Part shown: one piece after another, positions 5,123 through 31,997 of the stretch
Numbering within the stretch: position 1 is the first letter of the stretch
Layout: each line of letters opens with the position of its first letter
NCBI RefSeq assembly: GCF_003073045.1
Contig: NC_037600.1
Span: 13,721,188-13,785,187 of the forward strand
DNA length: 64,000 nucleotides
Origin: Pomacea canaliculata
Lineage: Eukaryota > Mollusca > Gastropoda > Architaenioglossa > Ampullariidae
Reading direction: 5' to 3'
Notes under the pieces: generated by a model
Seen by the model: only the letters and a program-made list of their open reading frames with translations
Told to the model about the DNA's origin: nothing
Databases searched by the model: none
Made by a program: the position numbers and the translations under genes

Positions 5123-8100
5123 ATGAGCACAAAACGACCATTTCCTCTGGGTGGGACCCAGGAATACAGTGAAGAGGCTTCGGCACCAAAGATAAAAACA
5201 GTGAATTATTCTGGGTCTCTGGATGCCATTAAGGTGAGAAAAGATCGGTGTGATGACCACAGAGACAATAGTAGTTTATTCCTTGTTACTCCTTGAGGTC
5301 GCAACAACACCTCACCAGCGGACCCAGTTTTGGGCAGCCCCCATCCCCTCCCCCTCAGTTGGGCCCATGGGGTTCCAACGTCCTTTGCCTCACTCTCTGC
5401 TGTTCTTTTCCAAGTCTGCTTTGGTCTCCCAACTCTCCTCTTCCCCTGAGTGTTCCAGTCAAGCAGAGACAATACTGTTAGATAAAAACAGTCGTCTTTA
5501 TTGCAGTTTGTAGCATGTAGTGGTCATGACTTTTGACAGAAAGTTTAGTCCCTGAAAATGTTGATACAAAAGCTCACTAGAGTTACACTGTCAGATCAAA
5601 CGCCCGCAGTTGAGACTAGCCTGCAGGCTGTGGAGTATGATATAGATTCATTAAGGCACAGGTTACATGTTACAGAGTATGTTGTTTCATAATTCAATTT
5701 GCTAGGTAGCTTTTGTTTATATATTGATAGAGATTTTTCTTTGCTTAGTCCCAGGATTTAGTATAGTGTGTGTGCATGCATGCATGCTTCATTTGCATGT
5801 ATAGAAACAGTAGTATCTCTCACTTCAGTCTTCATCTGGCATGTCATGCAGAGTGTCACCATTGCTCTTCTGTTTCTCATATTCCACAGATTGCATATGG
5901 CTACAGTTCTGGTACCAGCAAGAAGTGGATGGAGTCAGACGAAGATAAAATTGTAGGCTGCAGAAAGCCCGGCTACAGCCAAGACATGAAAAGATTAAGC
6001 AATAAAGACATCCATTCAACCACCAGTGGTAGTATCTTTTGTTTCCTAATGTCCACTGTAGCAGGTTGACAGGTTTTTGTGACTTTGAAAATAATTGAGA
6101 ACCGTGGGTTACAAGCTAGCTTGGCTGTTAAAATGCTAATGATTGTATTAAAACTAGAGTGCAAGTTAATGCTTAGCCCAGTGGTGCCCCACCTTTTCTT
6201 GCCTGAGGGCCGCACTGGACATGATATAAAATCTTGCGGGCCAGAACATGGCAGTTTTGGCAGAATCATGATGCTAAAAATGAAATTATATTGTGTCATT
6301 AAAATGAGTGGGCCAGATGAGGCATCTTCGTAGGCCACATGTGGCCTGTGGGCCGTAGGTTGGGCATCCCTGGCTTAGCCCCAGTGAAACATGAAGTTAA
6401 TCCCAAAGTTACTGACAGGTTAGTGAAACTGTTATTAGTTTGACACAAAAATGCATTATGTTTTTTTTTAAATCTACTTTTGATGTAATTGAAAGCCACA
6501 TTCATTTTGAGCACTTAGCACTTGTTACTGAGAAATTGCCATTGAACAAGTCTATTTGTGTAATTTCACAGGAAATAAGGTTTAGTCTTCTTTTCAGGCC
6601 ATATTGGAGAATTCTTATGTTCAAAAGATTTTTCTCGCATGTTGAACAGAGCTGTCAGCATCGATTTGGGGAATCAGTATTAGATAATGAACTCATACCA
6701 TAAAGTTGAAAATGATTTTATTCCCATGTGGGCATGTAAAATAGCTGACAGCATAACAATGTTGATGGCTTATCTAAATTGTTGTTAATTGGTTATCAAA
6801 CATCTGTCCAGTAAGATTCCATTCTTAGATTTGTAGCAGTCATGTATCTGAGAGCTGCCACAAAAAATATTTAAAATTAAATATGTTAGCTGTTATTTTC
6901 ACTTGTGGAGTTTAGACTTGGTAGTTGAATATATTTTTGAGTCCAAACTATTCTTTGTGTCCTAGGCACTTCTCAAGGTTTCAGTCATGGAGTAAGTGAG
7001 AGCTTGTCCAGAGTATCAGGGCAGACAATAACTTTTGATTACAATCATGGTTCCAGTACAGCAGGGCCAAGTAATTTTTCCAACTTCCAACATAGTGAAC
7101 TCTTCAGTGGTAAGAAAGGATTTGGCAGCTTTAAGCAGGAAGCAGCTGACTTGCAAGGGAATCAAATGCAGATTTCCAGAGGGGAATGTAATTATGCTGA
7201 TGATGCCGACATTGGTTCTGGCGGCAGCCCATGGGAGATAGGGAAAAACTGTGATCCCTCAGCTCATCAGCCAGTGAGATTTGACAAAGTGAACCAAGGA
7301 GATCAAGATTCCCACTGCAGGTTTACATGGAGAATCAGAAGAGGGAGTCAGATGGGGGTAAAAAATCTGAACCAGGATTTTGGTTTTGGGAGTGAGATGA
7401 ACATGAGAGGTAGAAGTTTCAGAGGTCAACCAAGTAGACAGGCGAAAACTCCCAACCAGAGCTTCATATCAGTGTTCAGACAGAGATCAGAGTCAAGTGG
7501 TGGTGAGGACGAGTCGGAAAATGCCACTAACACAAATTTTAGGATCACTCATTCTTTAGGAGTGGGAAGAGGTCAAAACTTTGGGAATCAAAAAATGAGA
7601 AAGCCAAGAACCTTTGGTGGACAGAACCATCCAGCAGAGTCCGAGAGCATGAATCATGGGTATGGCAGGGATCAAGCAAAGATAAAACATCAGATCCATG
7701 ATTTTGTTTTTGGAGATGTGGCAGACATGAGAGGTGAAAGTTTCACAGTTCGAGCAAGTAGACAAACTCAAAACCAGACATTCAGATCTGAAAGGGGCTC
7801 AGTGTTAGGACAGAGGTCAGAGTCAAGTGGTGGTGATGATGAGTCGGAACATGCCACTAGCACAAATTTTAGCATCACACATTCTTTAGGAGTGGGAAGA
7901 GGTCAAAACTCTGGGAATCAGAAAATGAGAAAGCCAAGATCTTTTGTGGACAGAACCAGTTAGCAGAGTCTGAGAGCATGGATCATGGGTATGGCAGGGA
8001 TCAGGCAAGGACAAAACATCAAAGCCATGATTTTGTTTTTGGAGATGTGGCAGACATGAGAGGTGAAAGTTTCACAGTTCAAGCAAGTAGGCAAACTCAA

Positions 8101-11100
8101 AACCAGACATTCAGACCTGAAAGGGGTTCAATGTTAGGACAGAGGTCAGAGTCAAGTGGTGGTGGGGATAATGGTGGTAATGATGTGCTAGAAAATGTCA
8201 GTGGTGAAAGTTTTGGCATATCCCAGTCTTTTGATTGGGGGCAAGGTCAGAAAAAGGGAATGTCAAGGTCTTTTTTGGGAGAGACCGAACAAGAGGAATC
8301 CAAGAGTAGGGGCTTTAGAGGTAGAGGGAATCATGGGAACACTAGCAAAGGAGACAATCCAGTAAGGCGTGGCCAGTTCAGAGAAAAACCTGAGCACCTA
8401 GTCATAAGTGGCTTAGACCAACAGGGACAATCAGGAGGTAATAGGTGTCCTGGAGCTTTTGGAGGAGGAAGAGGAGGTGGTGGTGATAATGGCAGTGGAA
8501 GCGTTGCTTTTGGTCGTGGGGCCAGCTTAGGCCGAGGAGCTGCATGCAGGTTTGCACGAGGAAGCAATAGTACTGTTGCACCAGTTCCACTTATGAGCAT
8601 AAAATTTGAAGGTCTGGAAAAGTGGAACAACCAAGGAGGACCAGGGAGGTGGAACACTCGGGGCCTGCAGTCGGGAAGAGGTGCTTTCTCTCACAGCAGA
8701 GGCAGAGGTAGCACTACAAGACTGGATGGCCACTCTGCTAGCTCAAGCAGCATAACTAGCAATAATTCACCCTTTGGCCAAGAGCAGCCTCATGCTGGGG
8801 AGAGTACAACCTTCAACAGGCCAGCCAATCAGAACAACCTTGGCGATGTGTCATGGTCCTGTCGATATGCTTTGATGTTTGGAGGCAGTTTGGACAACCC
8901 ACAGGTGTGTGCAACTAGCATCTGTCCTTAAAAGGAAGGCTTTACTGTACTTTTTTATGCAGACAATCCTCTTGCTGCATAATTTGATTTGATAATATGA
9001 TGATCATCATCCCCGAAATATTTACACATTATGTGTTAACATATGAAAGTGTTTAGGCGCCATAATATCAACTTGTGTATGCATGTATTCTTTTTCTGAA
9101 TCATATCACATTGCTACCCCTTTACGCTTTATGCATTTTTACTCCTTACAGACCCTTCATAACTGATATATCATCAAATGTGTGACTATATTTTGCAAAG
9201 TTGTTGTGAAATCTTTGCCAACCATAGTCACACATTCAATGGAAAACTTTCAAGAAACTATTTTGAGGTCCTGTGTTTCTTCATTTCTGCATACAGGCAG
9301 TGCGGCTGCAGCAGTTCAAAGACTTTTTAACAAACTTTCCAGAGCGTATCAATGCTATACAAACCATTATTAATGGCATCACTGCAAGCAGACTGAAGCT
9401 GACAGCTGACTTTGAAGCAGAACATTTGATGACAGTTATCAAGCCTCTGTTCACAGGCCGCCTCAGTCTTGGTGAGACCTTTCTCACTCGTGGCTTGGGT
9501 CTGAGCAAAAAGGCTGTCAAGGCAAGTGTTCAGAGTCCTTTTTGTATTAACTTTGTTATAAAGTCCTCATACTTTTTTTTAAAAGAAATTATTTATTGTA
9601 GATGATTGATTTTTGTAATTATAAAAGAGAGAAAGATCAGCATTTCTGAGTGCTGTTGCCAAGACCATCAAATCTTTGTTTCCTTTTAAAATTCTAACAT
9701 CACATTCTGAAAAGATCTGGTCATGTAAAGAAATTTAAGACATCCGCTTTTCTTGATTAGACCAATCTGAAAAATTGTCTTAGCAGTCAGAGATGGGGTT
9801 TCAGATGCCTTAAGCATGCTTATGCTTCATTATAGATTTATAGCAGAAGTATGCATTTGTTGAGTAATGATTTTCTCACTTTTAGCACGACTGTTTTACA
9901 CGTGGCCTGGAAATTTTGAAGACAAAGTCAGTGGAGGAGATTATGGCTCTTGAAGATTGTGGAGTCGAAGCTTTGAAGGAGGAAGTGCTTCAGCAGAGTA
10001 AAGAAGACTATGATGCTTTCAAGAAATTTATATATGTAGGTATTACAGTAGGCCAAAATGTGTTTCCCTTATGCTTATTAAACAGCACAATGAGAATATA
10101 TTCACATGACCATTGATCGCAGTGTTTTTTATCAAGTTAGTAAATAAGGCTAGACATGGTGAACTAATTAACCCTGTAAACAACTGCCACACTATAAAAC
10201 AATTTTTTAGAAATTGAAATCTGAGCATCATTCTCACTGGTTGATGCACACTTAATTTCTGAACAGCCTAAATTTAAATAGTCTTTTTTTTTTTTGCATT
10301 ATTTATGTATACTAAATTACTTGTTAATAAATTATATTAATTATTAAAGCAGATGAGAAGAAATGAAAATAGCTTATTTTTCCTTTTTTTTTTTTAAAGG
10401 AAAAACATGCTTCTGAATCTGACACCTCAGAAAAGATTCGTACAGCTGCTATATCAACAGTTAGGTCAACTGAGTGGCACTTTCCTCTGGCAGACAAAAT
10501 AATGATGTTTGCAAAAGAAGTTGAAAAGCCAGGCATGGAAGATGTTCCCCTCATATCTCGATTTGATGTCACTAGCTTTAAGGTATGATGACCTTTGTCT
10601 TATAAGAATACTAATTCAAGGTATGCCAAAGTTGCTTCAACATAGGGTTGTGGCATGTTGCTTTAAAAAAAAATATTCCATGTAAAATGAACTTGTTCCA
10701 AGTTAGGTTTCTTGAAATTCCTCCCAATAGTTCAGTGTAGCCAGTGGGAGATAATGAATATTTGAAGTTGTTGCTTTCATATTTGTAGTCAGATTTTCTT
10801 TACCTTAACTCATTGATAGTGGGACCCTGATTGTCATGATTCTACCTAGATGTACATGAAATTTAAACATTAAACCAAAAAAGAATGTGAAATACAGATG
10901 AGTAAATCTGAGTGATAATTAAAATTCACAATATGTAGAAATCAAATATCCCTACTTGCCATCATCATCTTTGAACAACTTTATTGCTTACATGTTTTCA
11001 AAAACAAATTCCAGTACGTCCGAATACTACCTTGTTTTGATCAGTGTTTCATCGGAGTCCTTGTTTCGTTCTTGAAGAGTAAAAGCAGAACTCCATCATT

Positions 11101-14100
11101 GCAGGTGGGCATAACTGTGACAGTGGTCTACAGGCTTGAGCAGGTACCTCAAGTAGCAGAGGACCAGGCTCCCAAAACAGCTTGTGGCCAGGATCAGAAC
11201 CTTCTTGTAAATTGCCACATTTACTTTGATGACACTCTTGTTGGGAAGGGATGTGCTAAGAGTCGTAAAGAGGCACAGAAACTGGCATATGAAAATTTGC
11301 AAAACAGACTTTGTTCTGAGTCATTTGCTGCCATTGCTGCTGGACCAAAGATACCAGAAAACCCATCCAGTTTGCCTGACTTCCTTGATGTTGTCTATAA
11401 AGGAGCAAAACCACAGCAAGGTGGGTTAACTCTTACCATATAGTATAAGAAGTACTCACTATATGTAGTGCAAGAAGTACCTTTTCTAAGATTCAGTAGC
11501 TTGCTCACAAAGGACAATTTTGTGGAGGTTTTTTTTCCTTTTTTTTTTTACCTGAGAGAATTGAGCTTAATAAGAACCAACAATTTTACCTGATAGTCTA
11601 AACTCTTTTATGGATGAGAAAACTGTTAATTAGTTGTATAGTGTGTGTAATACCATATTATAGTATTAATCTTGTGTTAATGTTGAAGATTTAAACACAC
11701 ATTCATCTTGCTTATAGGAGAGCTCATGGTATCTAAAAAAATAAAATACTATATGCTCAAACACTTCTATCCATCCAAACAACTTATATAATCGAATGTG
11801 CACAGAGAATTTGAAAAAATAAAAATTAAGCATAGGTATGCATTTATTTAAAGACCTATAACTTGCTTAAAATGAAAGATATTTATTTATTCAGAGTTAT
11901 AATAAAGGAATAATAAATATTTATAATATAGAAGGGGACAAGTCATTTAGAAAAGCAACCTTGTAAACTTCAGTTGTATCTAAGACCTTATGAAAAAGTT
12001 TTTCAACCAATTGTCTACAAATACTTTTCCACTTAGCTTAGAGACACAGTCAGTAATATTTTAAAATGTGTCCAAAATAAGTGATTTGAGCATTTTCATT
12101 TTTATAAATAAGTGAAATGAATAACGAAGGAGATTATCTTGAAAAAGCATCCCCTGTGGGTTGGGAATTGGATGTGTAGTACTGAAGGCTACAATAAGAG
12201 CATGTTCTTCACGTGATTTGTTAGGCAGCAACAGTCACAAGCTCAGCCTTATGAAGCTTCACCCACCGGATCCAAATGCCGACCCTGATGATATTGTCAT
12301 CATGGAGTCAGAAGGCGACAACCTAGAAGAAAATGCCTTTAAGGTACTGGAGTTTTCAGCCACCAAGAATGGCATGTTGCTCAGCTGGCGACAGCTGGAC
12401 AAGGGCAATGCTCCAGGCAGTTTCAGGTACATCGTGTTTTGTTTGAGAAATGTACCATGGCACCTCGATTTGCATTACTTGAGGGTCTTCATGAAACATA
12501 GTGATTTCTTATGCCTGAAGTGTACATCTTCCTCTTATTTTTTATATCTGAGTTTATCTTCCCCTCATTTTTTTCACCTGCCAACTTGCCATATATCCTC
12601 CACAAAGACACAGACGCAGTGGACAGTATATTGCAGGCATTTATACCATGGTTTACCATTGATTGAAGTGAATGGGCATGGAAATTATTTTTAAGTGACT
12701 TTGATCTAATCATATATTGATATGAGATTGATCAAGTCCAGTAAGTATAAGGGTTTATTTCTGTCTTTAGAAGTACATGTATGTAGACAAAACAAAATAT
12801 TATTGCTAAATAATTATGACCTTTTGAGTCAATATCTATAAGTCCTTTCAAGCCTACTGAATATAAACATTGAGACTATCAGGTCAGCTCTTTCCACATT
12901 TCTGCATATGTCTGTTTCTTCATATTATAGGGTACTAGTTAAATTTCCAATATTGGTTCAACCACCTTGCAGGTGGACTTTAGGCTTCAAGTGGTTGCTA
13001 TCAACCAACAACCAAATGAATGTCTGGTCATCATTTTCAGGTGTGAAATGATTCTTCAGAACACGAAAAAGGTAGTTGGAGTGTCTACATCCAAAACCAA
13101 GGCCCGCAATGCAGCGGCTGCCCTCATGCTGGTGGATATGTACCAAAACCAGGATGTTGTCAAGGTATTCAATCTGTACTAAGAAGTCTTTTTTCCTGTG
13201 CAGTTTTGTTTATGAAAATACAGAAATACACATTCTGACAAGACATCATTCCTTTTGAGAATTTAGTGTGGGTCACATCATTCAGGCTGTTTATAGATTT
13301 TGTGTTTTTTTCTTGTCTGGCGAGCAGCTAAAACAGTTTTTTTTCATCTTTGTCCTTAAGTGGATAGCATTAGTTATAGTTCATCGAAGACAGTTACAAT
13401 TTTTATGTGGGATGAATTTGCTACATCCGACTGCTGGGATCAGTCTTCAGACTTTCATCGCCATTTGTTCAGGCAAACTGCTGCTCATGACTTCGAACAG
13501 TGAAGAATTTGGAAGACCTTAGTTTAAAGTTATTAATGCAGTTCTCATTTACTTGCCTACATAAGACCCACATATTTTTGGATTAGGTCAATTTATGCAG
13601 TTAAATTCTATTGCTGCTGGCTGTCAGAACACAAAGACAGGTCCGCTGATGGCAGTAATAGTTTTAAGACGGCGTCATTGTCTATGGTCGGCAGATTTCC
13701 CTCCCAGACAACGAGGCTGGGAAAATATCATACAAAGAGATCGAAGAGCGAGCGAGGGAGTTGAAAGCGGAGGGTCCATACCGCTCCGAGCGAGTGGACT
13801 GTGACTTGACCGTGCCGGATGAACGAGCTGAGGAGAAATGCAAGGCCGTGAACCGACAGAAAGCAGGGGCACAGCAAAGCGACAAGGCGGCCGGCAGTCA
13901 GACCTGGGACAAGCCAGATACTGAGCTAAAGCAGTGGCTGGACAACGAACTTCGACCTTGGCTGGAAGACGCCATCGTGGAACGAATAGAAAAATACACA
14001 AGCAAGGTATGCATCTTTCGCCATTTTATTTATATATATATAGAGAGAGAGACTATATTGTGTCATGTCTCGGATATCGCCTGCCCTTTTCCCTTTCTTT

Positions 14101-20495: not shown

Positions 20496-22100
20496 ATGAC
20501 AATGGCCACGCTATCGACACTGTTGCTGGCGCTCACGCTGATGGTTTATGCGAATGCTGAGGTTGGCGTTTATCAGGAGATTATCGAAATCAATGCAAGG
20601 CTTGGTATGGACAGTGTGTGTGTTATAAAGATAGGGGATTATTCAGTCAATATTTTGGCACTGTAATAATACATGTGAATATCAATTTCCTAAATATTCT
20701 TTATTTTCAAGCCTCTAGTATTTGTATGTGAGCCTGTGACAAAAGTTCGACTCCTACAATGGGTCAAGTGTTGTAAAATTAATTTCAATACTCCTGTTTT
20801 GTTTTTTTGTTTTTTTTTTTTTTTTTTGGGGGGGGTGTTTTTGTTTGTTTGTTTGTTTGTTTGTTTGCTTGCTGCTTGGGCTATATTTGCTAAAGTTTGT
20901 GGCATAAAGTATCCATAAATGTAGCTGCCAAGATAACTGTCTATCTGGTTCTTGCTCCTGTAAAACGTCGACAGGTGTCAGTGAGACCTCACGGTCGTCA
21001 CCATCGGACAAAGTCTTTCAGTTTCAAGTACAATGTCTATGTTGCTGTCAGTCTGTTCGTGTTTCTGAAGTTCTTAGTAAAATTGTCGTTCAGGCAACCA
21101 TTTTGTACACACGACTCTCGTCGTCTACGAGACAACAGCGATTATCTCGGTGATCAAGGTTTTCGCGATTTGGGAACAAAGCACCATGACGACCGTCACT
21201 ATGAATTCAGATGACATTCATTGTTTACAGGAACATGTTGACAAATACTCTGTGTGCGTACATTGTAGAACTTTGTCAGGGGAAAAGTCTCAGTGCAGCC
21301 CGGACGTTGGAAACTGGGTAGTGTGAATAGAGTTGACGTCACGTGACGCATCTACGACCAGGCATTTTGTTTCGTCGACGATAACACAATTCACGCATCG
21401 AAACACACAAAACATGTAAACAACAACAACAATAACACACACAAGCCAGTACTATCATATGTCTTTCAGGAGACCTTTATTCATACAGTGATGTAGTTTA
21501 AGGTTCAACAAAGAAAAAAAATACGATGTTGTAAGCAATCTAAACCCGACGGTATGTCAGAGGTCAACTTTGGTCACAAGCTCATGTACTTATGTTTGTC
21601 CAGACAAACTTCATTTAAACAAAACGGACGTTTAAGCATTTTTTTTTTTCAAGATGATAGTATTTGTGCTTCAAACAGACTGAGTGATTGAAAGTACTTT
21701 TTGTTCAGATCGTCTTGAACGACACGTCTTTTTTATGGCGACTACCAGTTTGACGACGCTTCCGAGTGGCGCTCTAGTCTTTGGCGAAATCCGGGCCAAC
21801 ACAGGCGGCGCCTACAACCCAGCAACCGGCGTCTTCACAGCACCTGTGGCCGGCCTCTACTTGTTCACTGTTCAGACATACATCAGAGTCTCTGGCCGCG
21901 CAAAGCTTGAATTGCGTGTGAATGGAAGTTGGATACTGCGTGCAAAAACTGGGTATGGGGATGATGAGAGTAACCAGTTTGTGTACCCCTTGTACCTCAA
22001 TTCTGGAGATAAGGTGAACGTGGAAAACACCTATCCTCCCTTTACAATTTGGGCAGAGCATCATACGTTCTTCTCCGGATTGTTGTTTAGGGCCCTTTAA
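20496..22100 (+). CDS. Secreted C1q-domain-containing protein
   Basis: Two exons, 20496-20604 and 21709-22100, join in phase (one base plus two) to give 166 residues. Residues 1-22 form a signal peptide (hydrophobic core LSTLLLALTLMVYANA). After a short linker (EVGVYQEIIEINARLG, then DRLERHVFF), residues about 48-166 form one C1q globular domain: LVFGEIRANTGGAYNPATGV is followed by FTAPVAGLYLFTVQ, the Asn/Tyr/Gly/Phe landmarks of the family, and the end is FFSGLLFRAL. No collagen repeat or long coiled coil is present, as is usual for molluscan C1q-domain proteins, which are thought to act as secreted pattern-recognition or lectin-like molecules. The reading frame is intact. Confidence 0.88.
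20806..20871. repeat. Poly-T/poly-G run and GTTT tetranucleotide repeat in the C1q gene intron
   Basis: A T-run of about 18 leads into GGGGGGGGTG, followed by about six GTTT units. Length here is likely to vary between alleles. Confidence 0.8.
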
Positions 22101-22449: not shown

Positions 22450-22869
22450 TGCCTGTGACTGTATCACGCTGGTGAAACAATAGTGATGTCATTTTGCTTC
22501 ATTAACTCGAGAGGACCGCACTCTGTCTCGTCCACACATCTACGTTGTTTTCGGTAGCTCTTGTAGGTGTGAGGTATGTTGTTGTTGCTTCTTACACATA
22601 TTCTGCTTTGTTCTTTCTATACCTGCATCTTATTGTTTGTGGGCTCTTTCAACTGATCTGTACATTAAATGTTGATTGTTTGTTGATGGCCGAAAAGACA
22701 TGACACTGGTGAGAGAGAAAAGGGGAGACGAGTGGTCTAGTATCAAGAACTCTATATGTGTATATAATGTGTTGTGGCAGGTCTCGTGTTGTCTCGTGTA
22801 CAACGGTGTCTTCTGTGTGACGTCTTGTGTGCGTCATTTGTTCCACGTCATTTGAAGCAGAAAATGACG

Positions 22870-23090
22870 TCATATAAAAGAGAAAAGCAGTTGTGTGGAG
22901 TGTTCCTGGACATTGAGCGGGCCTACGACATGCTCTGGCATGACGGTCTGATCCAGAAACTCTACCACATGGACACTCCAAATAAAATTGTTCACTTAAT
23001 CAGATCCTTCTTGTCAAACAGAAAAATTTCAGTCAGAGTGGTCAGCCAGACGTCCAGACTGGATTTTTTCGATTTTTATAAACATCGGCA
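22870..23090 (+). mobile_element. Non-LTR retrotransposon (LINE) reverse-transcriptase fragment
   Basis: The plus-strand frame reads REKQLCGVFLDIERAYDMLW, then HDGLIQKLYHM, then IVHLIRSFLSNRKISVRV. The order V-F-L-D-I-E-x-A-[FY]-D then W-H-x-G-L and SFLSxR is the first palm block of Jockey/CR1-type reverse transcriptases. Only about 60 codons are recognisable. The catalytic YADD block and the rest of the ORF are absent, so this is a short, probably 5'- and 3'-truncated remnant. Confidence 0.75.
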
Positions 23091-23099
23091 GCCGACATA

Positions 23100-26000
23100 G
23101 TGCTAATAAGTGGTAATTAAGTGAGAAACGAATCATTTATTTCTCCTGTATCGCTCTCGTGCTCTGTCATTTTAACTAAATATAGTTTTGAAACGTCTGA
23201 CCGTCGCCACAGCCTTATCACAAGCCATGAGTATCCATTTAATGATATAAACCGGCTTGTCATCAGACAGCAAGTAGTAACAAAAGCAAGTAAAATCATA
23301 ATACATGGTAAGACTTAATAAAGGGTGAGAGATACTTCATGTACTTAACGAACTACAGACTTTGAACGCTGGGGCAGGCTCGGATCGTTACCTGCAAGTA
23401 GGTGTCCGGCAGGCTGCCAAAAGCCTTCTGCTGCTTTGACAAGAGCTGCGATTGTCGAGACCTCGCATGTTGAGAGACCCACAATCTTTGCAAGGTTCTT
23501 GACAAAGAGCAACGAACAGAACAAAGGGTGAAATAATAACTCAGTTGTTCACTTCGTCTAAAGCATGACATTTGGAAGGCAGACCCCCGAATTTTATTTT
23601 TCTGCCATCCATTATTACTATAGGGGTCACACTAGCTGGATGCTAACAGTAGCAGTAAGCTATTATAATGTATGAGCATTTTAGTTTACAGCACACGCCA
23701 AGCTGTATTATCTAAATAGCTCAACTTTCGGCCCCAGGAAGCCATTTCCTCTTTGGGGGAGATAATTTTCTTGTCACAGGCCACCTTCGGCTTTGTAATC
23801 AAGGGGGATAACCGCCAGGTTTCAATCGCTTCCCACGGTGAAAAAAGCAGATTACAAAAATATCTTTAAACATATTTTTAACAGCTCTCGTAAATTCCGA
23901 ATTTCTGCGAGTATATGTCCTCCACTTCCTTCCTTCTCCAGGAAATCTCTCGCTTTCTCTCTCGCTTAATTCTCGGTGAGCTATTTTTGGAAGAGGATTT
24001 GGTGGTAGACCAGCTTGATTGTATGTCGCTAAGTTAAAATCCAATTTACCTTGCCGTGTCGTTTGGGAGCTGTAAACCTGTGGGCGTTGGATTGATAAGA
24101 CATCAGTGGACTCAATGCATCAGGGTGTTGGGGGGCTTTTAGTTCAGTGGATACCCATCTGTGCGCTGTATGGAGGATTAATAGACTCTGTACCAGAGTT
24201 CTTTGATTTACGGCTGTGAACTTTGACCAACCGATATCTCACCATAGTGAAGGAGAAAACTAGCGACCTGTTGAACTCTCGAAATCTCTCGACAGATTGT
24301 ATATTAATCTGAAGTTTATTTTTTTTTTTTACACTCTTTGTAAACTGTTTAGATGTGTGCCTGGCTTCAACTGTAATTTATTACAATTTTGTACCCCTTC
24401 GATTTACACCCCAATAAAAGATTTATTTAATACATTCGGCGAAGCAATACTCTGATTTAAAGTATAATTTTTTAATATAATTTTCTGATAACAACATCAG
24501 TCTACCTAATCAAATATTGTTCGGAAATTAAACCGACTTTATTACATGAAATTTGTGCCATGTTTGAGTACGCGTTAGCACAAAGAATTTCTCACCACCT
24601 GCACCTGTTGCCCGGCCGATGATTTAAAATGACAAAAAAAAAAAAAAAAAAAAAAAAAAAGACAAACCACCTGAGGACAGCAGACGATAACTAAACTAAG
24701 GTTTCTCAAGTGCCGTTGAAAGATGTTATCAAACTCGACACATTCAGCACAAACCAGCTCCTTCGCTTTGACAGGAAGTGACGCAAGCATCCTGATTTAC
24801 GAACTGCGACCGAAGCTGTCTTCAACAATGGGAAGGTCTCACGACTAGTGGCATACTGTTCAGGTTCTGATAAGTCCTGAGACAGCTGGGTTATTTATTG
24901 GGTACACTGTCAAATTCCAAGCTTAACGGGTAGCCAGCGAGACAAATCTTTATGCTTCCTCCATCCACAACCCTCGCAAACACATGCGTCCTCAAGATCT
25001 GAGACCTTTAACCTTCTTCGGTATTGCTATTTTTTCTGTACATTCGTTCTCTTTATATGCTTGCATGGTAGGAATGTGAAAGTCTTCCTTTTGCGGCATC
25101 CTACTGGGCTTCTTAATTCATAGCTTGCAGTTTCTTTTTCATAGTTCGATGCACCACATTTCGGAAATTTGAGCTTCATTTCTCTTGGAAACTATTTGCC
25201 AAAGAATCTTTCTTCCCTCTATTTCTTACTTTCTCTTTCTCCCCTCCCTCCCCCACCCCACACACAGGTGTTTACCTCTCAGCACGCTCAGGTAGTCCAC
25301 ACACGGACATAATTTCAGGTTGAGAATTTCAAGAGCTGCACGTTCTATTAGATTACCCTTGTCAAGCTAATCCACCCCTCTTTTCACCTTCGGAACATGT
25401 CGTTTTTAATATCAGACACTTTAAAAAATCTTGCCTGATGCCTAGAAACAGACAAACAAGTAAATACTCTCTTGATCGCCTCTGTCAACACAAACTGATT
25501 TAATTGACACGCGTTTTAAATTTATCGTAAATTAAAAAAAATCTTCGTTTATCATTTTATTATGGAGGGATTCATGACTCAACAAAATACAAAAACCCGT
25601 AAAACGATTTTTTTTAAAAAGTGATTTGGTAGAAGTTCAGTTTACCTGCGTTAAAGCCTGAAATCTCATTTGAGTGGATCTTCATTAGTGCACTTTCTGA
25701 AAATTATCCAGATCTCTTGCTTCATGCTAACGATGAGAGAGAGACATTCCTAATTTCCTAAAACTTATAGTGGATTTTGCTACTAAAAATGCTTTCCGAA
25801 AATAGCTTGCCTTGTGGCTCAAAAACATTTTTTTTTATTTGTCAGTTCCACACACACTATATATATAGCATATTAAACCTCTATTACCAACACTTAAACA
25901 AATCTGATTGTCAACCATTTGTTCGTCCCGGAAGATAATCTGCTTAAGAGTTGGAGCCGCTCGTTTTAGTAGTCTGATTTTTTAAAAATTCCCAGACTAA

Positions 26001-27693: not shown

Positions 27694-27700
27694 TATATGA
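27694..27700 (+). promoter_or_regulatory. TATA box of the unknown secreted-protein gene
   Basis: TATATGA lies 80 bases upstream of the ATG at 27774. A start site about 30 bases on would give a short 5' leader of about 50 bases. A TATA box fits a tissue-restricted, strongly expressed secreted product. Confidence 0.5.
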
Positions 27701-27773: not shown

Positions 27774-30700
27774 ATGACGGGTCTGGCTGTGCTGGGATTT
27801 ACGTGTCTGGTTTGGGGTTTGAGTGCAGTGCAGGTAAAAATTAAAATAAGTTTTTAAAAATTTTGCACCGCCTAAAATGTCATAATTTCTCTTTGCTATA
27901 GTTGTGAGACACCCCATTTTATAAGTTTCGCATTTCTTAAAGGAATCAACAGTAGACCTTTTACAATTAGAATTCGCTGGTGCAACAAATATATGCGTGC
28001 GTGCGTGTTGCAGTGCAGCGATGTCCCTGCTCCTCCCCCATTGTTGCCAAGAACACAGTCTCCACACCCAACTCCCCTCCTGTGGCTGTATACCACGCCC
28101 AGCGGGAGGAGGCTGAGGTGAGCAGTAAACAAAGATGTTGGAAGGAGGTGGTGTGGCGCAGTGCTTATTTGTGAATTATCACCAGCTACTGGCTAGTCAC
28201 TATAAAAATACATCTATTAATCCCAGAAAAAAACTTAGCACAATACACATTCACTAGCATTAACTGTCTTTATTTCGATACATGTAGCAGAAGGTTTGTC
28301 AACCTATCACATGATAATTTTTTGAAATTAAAAAATGTTAACCTTAAGAAATGGTATTCCTTACAAGAATCATGGCTGGCTTATTTAGACAAAGTTAGGG
28401 TTATTCTCCATATATTTCTGATTAAGATGAATAACTTGTGTACTCTTTATTCAACATTAAAGCTACAAAACTTTGTCTTTAGTAGCAGCTATATGTTTTA
28501 ATTAAAGAAAGTGTGCAGTAATGATTCATTTGTCTGAATATTTCATTAATTTTCAATGATAAGACGAGATGTAGATACATTGGAAATTGTGCATAATTCA
28601 GATCATTTTCATCGTGTTTGTTTGTTGTTTACTTGTTGAAGGCACCACCTGCACCTCCACCGGTGAATCTGTATCACCTCCAGCGGGAGCAACAGAATAA
28701 AGAGGTCAGATCGGAGTGTAAGATTCTGGTTTTAGAAGTTTATTGTTGATGTAATTATTGAAGCGGTAGAAGGGACAGCCGTATAGAAGGATGAATAAAC
28801 GTCGCTGATAGTAACAAACCTACAAAATCGTAGGAAAATTTGTTTGCATTTGTTGACAAGCAAGTTTCCTGTTTCACTTTTATTTGCTCATGTTTTGACA
28901 GAGTAACCCAAGTCATTATGCACACACCACACACACAGACACTCTAAGGAGTGAGACATTAAATCATAAAAGCAAATTTGCTGTGTTTATCGATTATGTA
29001 ATTAATGAATAATATTAATCTGTTTGAAGACTGCTGATCCGTTATCAACTATTTTTAAAAGCACAGCTATCTTCTACGCCATAAATAAATAATTAAGATA
29101 ACTTATATGACTATCTTCTTTCTACAAAACACAAGTCTTTAAAGAAAGAAACAATTTAAGATTCCGTTGGTTTAGTCAGGAAAAGAGATAGCTTTTTAGT
29201 AGCAAGCCCTATTTCTAGAATATTGCGGAGGTTCCCAGTCACTTAATCCCCAGACACTTCATCCCCGACACTTCATCCCCGACACTTCATCCCCTAGACT
29301 TTTAATCCCCAGACACTTCATCCCCAGACACTTAATCCCTAAACTAAATCCTTAACTATAAAAATTATGAAGTCAGCGAAAAATGTAACTGAAATTCAAA
29401 TTCAAATCATGCTATTAACTTAACGTCATTTGAACATATACAACTTTAGTTAAAGTTCATATAAGCTAGTAAATTTAATGTTCTTCAACAATATGATATG
29501 AAAATTGTTGTTGAGTGTCGGGATGAAGTGTCGGGATGAAGTGGATGAAGTGTCCTGGGGATGAAGTGTCTGGGATTAAAAGTCTAGGGATGAAGTGTCG
29601 GGGATGAAGTGTCGGGGATGAAGTGTCTGGGGATTAAGTGACTGGACACCATTGCGGAATACAAAGCACTTTTGCCTTCCTCCTCTACATGGTCGCAGAT
29701 ATCGTTTGCTGTGTCGTTTGCAGACAGGCTTGGTGCGCCCTCTGGAACGGGAGCTGGACATCCCGTACAACCAGTTGCCTGACTCCTCCCTGCTGGAGAA
29801 CATCATTTACGACCTGCAGTCGGTATGAAATGCCTGCTTTCCTGCCACCAGGACATCCATTTAGTTATGATGTTTTACAATCACACTAATACATAATTGT
29901 CCGACCAGTCACATGCAAAATGAAATGGTTTTTACATTTGCTGGGATATCTCTGGACATTGAACTCTTCAGAGAAAGCTAGAAACACGCTGACGTGAAAT
30001 GAACTGAAATTAAAAAAGAGCATAATCGTAATTTTAAAATCCTTTCCGTCGTTATTTCATCAGCGTGGGTTGACCTACACTGTACTGAAATATATTGAAT
30101 AGAATTGATTCCTAAAAAAATGTCCGTTGTGATATTAAGTCAAAGCCCGCAGTGAGTTATTTTGGATTGATTTACAATTTGCAAAAGCTCTTTATAGTTC
30201 TCAATCCTTGTGTTCCCTGGTTTCTCTTTCTGTCTTCTTTGTTTTGTCTTTTTTTTTTTTTTGTCTGAATAGCTGTTTCTCCTTCTGCCTTTCGTATTCT
30301 GCCCATGCAAGCCTGCTCCTTCGTGAACGTGATTATGCACTATATAAATCACACTGTTCTTCTTCTTCTTTTTTTATATATTTTAGTAACCTATTGCATG
30401 GCGAGATTCATGTGCACCCTCTTTCTCTCTCTGTGCGTGTGTGCTAATACCCGTTAAAATTTCAAATGTGCATGTACAGAGTGGAGGCCTCACAGCACTG
30501 AAGGATGAAGATCTTCAAGTGTGTTTCATCGACCACTTCGTTCGGCCTTTCATCGTACCCCGAGAACAGCGCAGGTTCTACACACACGCCTTGGTCAGAT
30601 CCGTTTGCTTGTTTTGTTTTCCCAGAACACTTCCCTCCCTTCCCTGACCCCCAACCTTCCTCTATACATTTTTTCATAGACCTTTTGACCTTTTGAAATG

Positions 30701-31597
30701 CATCGATCCGCGTCACGTCTTGACGTCAATTGTCTGGTGACGTATGTCAGTGACGTCATTGTGTCAGTGACGTCAGTGTCTTTTCTGTACATGTTGCAGT
30801 CCTCAACTCTGGCGGAAAATGAAGACGACCACAAGGCCTTCAAGTCCATGGTGGGACAGCACATCTACGACCTGTGCCGAGGGATCAGGACTTACTGGCT
30901 GGACAGCAGACTGCTCTTTGAATATGAAACCACGTGCAGGTACAATAAACTGCTTGTATGCACGGCCATTTTGAATACTAGGACGAGTACTGTTGTTTAT
31001 CCTTTTATAGTTCTTGTGTTACTTGTTTGTTTTCCTGTCCCTCCTCTGCCATCTATGTTTCGTTCTTGTTCTTAAGAGCATGCTCCTTAGGAGTGTGAGT
31101 ATGGGCTTTACAAATTTTACATTTATGATTATTATTCTCTTTTTTCTGTATAGGGTGTGTGGGTGGGTGGCTTGGTGAGCGAATAATCGGGAGGGAATAG
31201 TTCCCAACAAAATCTTCACCAAAAGAATGATTCAAGCTTGCTGCAATACACTTAGTATTTCACTGAAATACGATATTAGCAGATGAATTGTTGTCCTTTA
31301 CTTTGTAACACGCAGAAGGCCATTCCAATATTGTCTAAGTTATTTGCACTCACTCGTACATCAATGTGACAGTGAAATCTTTCTCTCCTTTAGTCCGTTG
31401 CCAGAACCAGAGGCATGCCTCCTGCTCTTGGCTCCTCCAGTGGCATCAGGGCGCCACCCCCCGTTGCCCTGTATCGTGCACTGGCCGCGCAGCCACAGGT
31501 ACCCGTATACGCTGCACCACCCGCTCTGCCTGCCACTCCAGCCCCGGAGGTAAAAGCCCCACCACCTGTGGCTGAATACAGATTGCAGAATCCATAG
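27774..31597 (+). CDS. Secreted protein of unknown family with Pro/Tyr-rich repeats
   Basis: Seven exons: 27774-27833, 28019-28117, 28642-28704, 29724-29822, 30480-30593, 30800-30939, 31405-31597. All phases agree, giving 255 residues. Exon 1 encodes only a signal peptide (MTGLAVLGFTCLVWGLSAVQ). Exons 2, 3 and 7 carry a repeated unit: PPVAVYHAQREEAE, PPPVNLYHLQREQQ, PPPVALYRALAAQ, PPPVAEYRLQNP. Exons 4-6 encode a folded-looking core with LERELDIPYNQLPDSSLLEN, then DHFVRPFIVPREQRRFY and GQHIYDLCRGIRTYWLDSR. There is no transmembrane segment and there are few cysteines. The first usable acceptor of exons 2 and 7 is skipped for one 5 or 11 bases later, which the repeat frame requires. I do not recognise the family; a secreted matrix, mucus or reproductive-gland product is possible but is inference. 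Confidence 0.75.
29230..29650. mobile_element. Terminal-inverted-repeat (foldback/MITE) element with 8-bp target-site duplication
   Basis: The left end GGTTCCCAGTCACTTAATCC and the inverted right end GGTGTCCAGTCACTTAATCC match at 17 of 20 bases. The match continues for about 100 bases as iterated GACACTTCATCCCC units. The whole is flanked by ATTGCGGA at 29222-29229 and 29651-29658. The 170-base core (about 29346-29515) is AT-rich and non-coding. An 8-bp duplication with GG-starting ends and long iterated inverted arms suggests a Merlin-like or Mutator-like non-autonomous DNA transposon; the superfamily is not settled. It sits in intron 3 of the unknown secreted-protein gene, ending 74 bases before exon 4. 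Confidence 0.85.
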
Positions 31598-31991: not shown

Positions 31992-31997
31992 AATAAA
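31992..31997 (+). terminator. Candidate poly(A) signal of the unknown secreted-protein gene
   Basis: This AATAAA lies about 395 bases after the stop codon at 31595-31597. Its use is inferred. Confidence 0.35.

Follow-up and report, generated by a model that had tools for sequence, protein, structure and literature searches.

The gene at positions 27,774 to 31,597 (+ strand) of a 64,000-nucleotide stretch of Pomacea canaliculata DNA (NC_037600.1, positions 13,721,188 to 13,785,187; hereafter 'the window') is modelled as encoding a 255-residue protein whose core we assess, with a probability of roughly 0.93, to be a diverged BRICHOS domain, a chaperone-like module found in gastrokines and Bri2. 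The linker preceding the core bears two PPxVxxYHxQRE repeats, and the Pro/Ala tail following it bears two more repeats, of the form PPPVAxYR. The protein is likely to have a gastrokine-like secreted layout: that is, a signal peptide, a repeat linker, one BRICHOS domain (approximately residues 95-192), and a repeat tail. Sequence comparison suggests that the gene is probably a variant of the known BRICHOS family with proline repeats in its flanks, not a new family.

A search of the 255-residue protein against 24,736 Pfam models (hmmscan) returned BRICHOS (PF04089) first, with a score of 22.1 bits and an E value of 1.8e-4, the match covering profile positions 6-91 of 91. The core alone scored 24.6 bits (E 3.1e-5), and a 264-residue alternative model, described below, scored 22.0 bits. 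Decoys comprising five shuffled cores and one reversed core matched no Pfam family, and positive controls yielded 68 bits (proSP-C) and 106 bits (GKN1). Alignment of the core with a three-member BRICHOS profile (proSP-C, GKN1, and ITM2B, two of the three sequences not being database records) using hhalign yielded a probability of 89.8 and an E value of 1.8e-6 over 83 columns, as compared to a probability of 0.1 and an E value of 0.52 for the reversed core. In Smith-Waterman comparisons, the real score was reached by none of 1000 shuffles for GKN1 and by 2 of 1000 shuffles for ITM2B. The end of the core, CRGIRTYW...LLFEYETTC, lies in a GKN1-like stretch, with the shared pattern CRGI.TY...F.Y..TC and with 14 of 34 residues identical to GKN1 (E 1e-5 for that single comparison); 26 of 115 residues are identical to ITM2B (E 0.003).

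The superfamily has only three invariant residues, an Asp and two Cys, corresponding to D144, C160, and C219 of ITM2A, according to the portion of Hedlund 2009 (PMC2751770) drawn on here. D104, C122, and C171 of the Pomacea protein align with these three residues. The initial annotation had described a core without obvious family and had proposed an undescribed gene family, a proposal that a match of the core to a known family was to overturn. PF04089 provides such a match, just under the Pfam gathering score, and we have dropped an undescribed family as the leading reading on the combined evidence of Pfam, hhalign, and the invariant residues.

Several results weigh against the BRICHOS assignment or the associated layout. 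The Pfam gathering score, 25, exceeds all three scores obtained here (22.1, 22.0, and 24.6). The GKN1 and ITM2B sequences used for comparison throughout were not taken from database records, and the Smith-Waterman comparison with proSP-C gave no signal (195 of 1000 shuffles reached the real score). Searching the PDB with the core (phmmer) returned nothing up to an E value of 10; the same search with GKN1 returned three chance matches (E 0.82-1.8), with no BRICHOS among them. Single-protein scans for relatives yielded 18 pattern matches in prokaryote contigs and 9 in viral contigs, none of which was confirmed. Structure prediction, which had been proposed as a check, was carried out with AlphaFold from the single sequence; the models were too poor to assign a fold (predicted local distance difference test scores of 46.4 with the whole protein as input and 43.0 with the core), and both contained helices only, not the BRICHOS fold with its five-stranded sheet and helix-strand disulphide, a result that carries little weight at that confidence. 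The 255-residue model contains no furin-type R-X-K/R-R site before the tail, its sole dibasic site (RR at 138) and its RxxR sites (135 and 172) all lying inside the core, and contains no second C-terminal Cys, that is, no Cys after C191. A furin-like site separating the domain from the C-terminal part is described as a common BRICHOS feature (PMC9714404; Sanchez-Pulido and Ponting), and a C-terminal Cys pair (C244 and C261 of ITM2A) is described as conserved, with group A and a single stickleback TNMD as exceptions (PMC2751770). It is extremely improbable that the core resembles BRICHOS by chance, has an unrelated fold, and represents an undescribed family: the sub-threshold Pfam scores, the lack of a PDB sequence match for the core, the poor, helical structure models, and a proSP-C similarity no better than shuffles all favor this reading, but Pfam, Smith-Waterman (GKN1 and ITM2B), and hhalign concur, each with decoys, and all three superfamily-invariant residues are present.

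Other database matches were attributed to chance. In Pfam, the full protein also matched MerE (E 0.063) and CsiD (E 0.081), and the core also matched CsiD (E 0.018, next after BRICHOS), divDNAB (E 0.089), and POLH-Rev1_HhH (E 0.19); in NCBIfam, the sole match was a MerE model (E 0.1). Rfam (4227 families) gave no match at gathering score.

Gene structure and the exon 6/7 junction

The gene is intact-looking and looks real. As initially annotated, seven exons can be joined from an ATG at 27774 to a TAG at 31595-31597 to give the 255-residue protein. All six introns of this model start with GT and end with AG, and G+C content is 0.53-0.63 in exons vs. 0.31-0.46 in introns. The features are as follows:

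27694..27698, +, TATA-like TATAT, 80 bases 5' of the ATG (pattern match; no evidence of function)
27774..27833, +, exon 1: residues 1-20; start codon, then a hydrophobic stretch resembling a signal peptide
28019..28117, +, exon 2: residues 21-53; carries repeat copy 1 and, close to the mature N-terminus, CPC
28642..28704, +, exon 3: residues 54-74; carries repeat copy 2
29724..29822, +, exon 4: residues 75-107; BRICHOS core begins; Asp104 at 29811-29813
29799..30898, +, Pfam BRICHOS match: residues 100-178, with introns 4 and 5 inside
30480..30593, +, exon 5: residues 108-145; mid BRICHOS core; Cys122 at 30522-30524
30800..30939, +, exon 6: residues 146-191 and two bases of codon 192; BRICHOS core ends; contains Cys171 (30875-30877) and, within the gastrokine-like LLFEYETTC, Cys191 (30935-30937); a further possible donor follows 30955
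31405..31597, +, exon 7: from the third base of codon 192 through residue 255, then stop; proline/alanine-rich tail; alternative starts at 31394 and 31411 (+)
31992..31997, +, AATAAA, candidate polyadenylation signal (pattern match only)

The TATA-like sequence noted in the initial annotation is thus present as a pattern match; it says little about product abundance. The accompanying claim that all exons join cleanly holds in that introns 1-5 are phase 0 (intron 6 being phase 2 in the 255-residue model), and is less secure at two junctions. At exon 2 there are two acceptors 5 bases apart, of which 28014 breaks the frame and 28019 preserves it. The choice of sites at the exon 6/7 junction is ambiguous. 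Joining donor 30939 to the first AG, 31394, leads into another frame, without the exon 7 repeats; joining the same donor to acceptor 31405 or 31411 keeps the repeat frame and yields 255 or 253 residues, respectively; and joining donor 30955 to acceptor 31394 also keeps the repeat frame and yields 264 residues with every intron in phase 0. Splice scores, from a hand-made frequency matrix, are 0.63 for donor 30939 vs. -1.06 for donor 30955 and do not settle the junction. Third-position G+C content (0.52 for the PPPV frame, 0.77 for the other exon 7 frame, and 0.66 for exons 1-6) does not decide either.

We favor the PPPV frame of exon 7 because repeat copies 3 and 4 resemble copies 1 and 2 as protein while using different synonymous codons, a codon comparison that is biased in that the copies were picked for protein similarity. 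The competing possibility is that the main transcript joins donor 30939 to acceptor 31394, adding a 53-residue tail with three more cysteines after Cys191, and that exon 7 is seldom or never read in the PPPV frame. Consistent with this possibility, 31394 is the first AG past the pyrimidine tract, donor 30939 outscores donor 30955, and the shifted frame is open for 53 residues (31394-31553). However, the motif seen in exons 2 and 3 recurs twice in the PPPV frame, in different synonymous codons, this frame stops shortly past the second of these copies, and none of 20,000 flank shuffles contained two or more copies of the motif. We consider the frame-shifted main transcript quite improbable.

Proline repeats and secreted layout

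The motif PPV..Y[HR] occurs at residues 40, 59, 210, and 245:

28076..28108, +, repeat copy 1: PPVAVYHAQRE, residues 40-50
28654-28689, +, repeat copy 2: PPPVNLYHLQRE, exon 3
31454-31477, +, repeat copy 3: PPPVALYR, exon 7
31559-31588, +, repeat copy 4: PPPVAEYRLQ, exon 7

In 20,000 shuffles of the linker and tail, one copy occurred in 25 shuffles and two or more copies in none; for the looser motif PPV..Y, one copy occurred in 455 flank shuffles and two copies in 3. The motif was defined post hoc, from a sequence already inspected. The four repeats around the core reported in the initial annotation thus exceed chance by shuffles, at most one stricter copy having occurred in any of the 20,000. 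Two details required revision: the form PPPVxxY applies to three of the four copies, the first being SPPV, and 'exon-encoded' applies to copies 1 and 2, which lie on exons of their own, and not to copies 3 and 4, which share exon 7. In the window, tblastn detected no paralogues of the gene; apart from the gene's own exons, the exon 2 repeat matched exon 3 with an E value of 0.16, and all remaining matches had E values of at least 0.87.

In the 255-residue model, the tail is 25% Pro and 21% Ala, has a net charge of +3 (vs. -6 for the core), and contains no Cys. Five cysteines lie past the hydrophobic segment: C22, C24, C122, C171, and C191.

Hydropathy analysis (Kyte-Doolittle, 15-residue windows) places the most hydrophobic stretches within residues 1-19, with a maximum of 1.98; the highest value elsewhere is 1.33, at residue 119. 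The signal peptide of the initial annotation is thus seen as an N-terminal hydrophobic segment, and this segment, together with the gastrokine layout, makes secretion plausible. The most hydrophobic windows begin at residues 1-5, leaving no N-terminal region ahead of them, and gastrokines are described as having no region N-terminal to the hydrophobic segment (PMC2751770). The order of parts (hydrophobic segment, linker, domain, and C-terminal region) is that of the four-region BRICHOS plan. With domain limits that we set ourselves, the linker (about 75 residues) and the tail (about 64 residues) fall inside the ranges in Table 1 of Hedlund (PMC2751770); the Pfam match spans 79 residues vs. a published domain range of 83-104 residues (PMC2751770).

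Comparison with known BRICHOS proteins points most closely to gastrokines. Like GKN1, GKN2, and chicken ovocalyxin-21, the Pomacea protein has an N-terminal hydrophobic segment with no preceding region, a single BRICHOS domain, the invariant Asp and Cys pair, and the CRGI.TY...F.Y..TC ending; unlike them, it has PPPVxxY repeats in linker and tail and, in the 255-residue model, lacks a second Cys after Cys191. On this layout, the protein is most likely gastrokine-like; pairwise comparison gave E values of 1e-5 for GKN1 and 0.003 for ITM2B. Bri2 sits in the membrane and has a peptide that furin releases; the Pomacea protein differs from ITM2/Bri2 in having neither a cytoplasmic part nor a furin site. 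It shares with ITM2/Bri2 the patterns NI.YD...LTA.....C and IY.LC....TY.L and the combination of a negative core with a positive tail (here -6 and +3), a trait of ITM2 according to PMC2751770. It aligns with proSP-C (PDB 2yad) at the Asp and the Cys pair, but shows no significant pairwise similarity to proSP-C, in which the mature peptide precedes the domain (PMC9714404) and which is described as having no C-terminal region (PMC2751770).

Other features of the window

Intron 3 contains an element of approximately 420 bases (29230-29650) built from oppositely oriented arrays of a 14-base unit, with 64-base arms that are 97% complementary. The sequence CACTTCATCCCC, allowing at most one mismatch, has 13 matches vs. 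0.21 expected, all within this element. An exact 8-base duplication, ATTGCGGA, flanks the element at 29222-29229 and 29651-29658, and on the basis of this duplication we take the element to resemble a non-autonomous hAT-type element. Intron 5 contains clustered palindromic GACGTC sites at 30710-30780, spotted by eye, in which TTGACGTCAA occurs once and GTGACGTCA occurs twice; these resemble CREB sites.

Upstream of the gene, all on the + strand, lie an open frame with a C1q domain (21684-22100; PF00386, E 4.9e-13); a reverse-transcriptase fragment that is probably a retroelement remnant (22768-23100; PF00078, E 2e-7); an exon-like frame with a partial double-stranded-RNA-binding motif (10919-11443; PF00035, E 9e-5); and two long, overlapping, Gly/Ser/Arg-rich open frames of 340 and 352 residues (6941-8931). 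The latter two frames contain internal repeated segments, for example, FRxERGSxLGQRSESSGG; in Pfam, the first gave a weak match (E 0.039) and the second gave none.

Possible function and significance

In the parts of the literature drawn on here, BRICHOS proteins are described as chaperones, as precursors of antimicrobials in polychaetes, and as predicted antimicrobials in corals; one is a transcript of mussel digestive gland and another a protein of chicken eggshell (PMC9714404, PMC2751770, PMC4203926, PMC9756803, PMC11767717, PMC6780910; see also PMC2827412, PMC12960093, PMC7761999, PMC10745061, PMC4666066). The mollusc report is a table row among transcripts up-regulated in mussel digestive gland (PMC4203926). 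A literature search on BRICHOS in connection with molluscs, gastropods, invertebrate gastrokines, shell matrix, and proline repeats, mostly at the level of titles and abstracts and thus not proof of absence, found no BRICHOS protein flanked by PPPVxxY repeats.

By analogy with the family, we propose, tentatively and at somewhat less than even odds, a combined chaperone and matrix mechanism. A Cys122-Cys171 disulphide would stabilize the domain, and Asp104 would be the residue tied to pH-dependent regulation, with which the BRICHOS Asp has been linked (PMC9714404). The domain would be a chaperone that, independently of ATP, prevents aggregation of a beta-prone segment, which might be its own LLFEYETTC strand or a segment of a partner secretory protein. 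The tail, being 25% Pro and 21% Ala and free of cysteine, probably does not serve as the customary hairpin client. The repeats, judged by composition alone, would most simply be extended spacers, or stretches that bind matrix, keeping the domain within mucus or some other extracellular matrix. The number of cysteines, five, is odd, and therefore at least one would have no partner within the molecule and would be either free or joined by a disulphide to another protein or to a second copy. GKN2 pairs with TFF1 through such a cysteine.

An alternative, which we consider rather unlikely, is that the protein is a structural matrix protein in which the repeats are the working part, forming a scaffold in mucus, shell, or egg fluid, perhaps with Tyr/Gln cross-links, and in which BRICHOS merely keeps the product soluble before secretion. 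The occurrence of four repeats alike as protein in different codons, and the Pro and Ala content of the tail, accord with such a role. A precedent, also for the abundant shell, mucus, or egg-fluid product suggested in the initial annotation, is chicken ovocalyxin-21, a gastrokine that is an eggshell-matrix BRICHOS protein (PMC2827412, PMC4666066). PMC4666066 equates it with gastrokine-1 in the abstract and with gastrokine-2 in the text. Against a structural role, the copies are just four and short, ovocalyxin-21 is reported to be missing from zebra finch eggshell and known in chicken eggshell matrix only (PMC4666066), and the BRICHOS shell-matrix literature that we found concerns avian eggshell only. 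The matrix role and the frame-shifted main transcript would each fit the BRICHOS assignment too, so the odds that we attach to the several readings do not sum to one.

An antimicrobial-peptide precursor of the polychaete type, in which BRICHOS would be the pro-region and the proline-rich tail would be released, is very improbable. The protein resembles the polychaete precursors (arenicin, alvinellacin, capitellacin, and HfBRI) in being from an invertebrate and in having a signal, linker, BRICHOS domain, and variable C-terminal part in the same order; the tail net charge of +3 also agrees, and several annelid BRICHOS proteins are described as antimicrobial precursors. However, those precursors are characterized by a dibasic site followed by a cationic peptide, mostly with cysteines, and the 255-residue model has no such combination: there is no K/R-R before the tail, the RR and RxxR sites all being within the core, and the tail is neither cysteine-rich nor strongly cationic. 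By comparison, Lys/Arg-Arg ahead of a cationic C-terminal part is reported for 13 of 13 Heteromastus transcripts. Moreover, the same type of repeat is also present N-terminal to the domain.

A more speculative reading, which we regard as improbable, is a secreted BRICHOS chaperone in which Pro-Tyr repeats flanking the domain have replaced the usual cysteine-hairpin client, so that the chaperone becomes part of an extracellular polymer such as shell, mucus, or egg coat, and in which exon 6/7 splicing could swap the repeat tail for a cysteine-bearing one.

For annotation, the gene should be labelled BRICHOS-containing rather than orphan. BRICHOS domains attract study as natural chaperones against amyloid, and the functional work, as represented in the sources cited here, concerns vertebrate and polychaete members. 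If the proposed reading is true, a secreted member that lacks the usual cleavable hairpin but is flanked by repeats would raise the question of what its domain protects once the client is absent from its customary place, and could extend the lone matrix case that we found, that of chicken eggshell.

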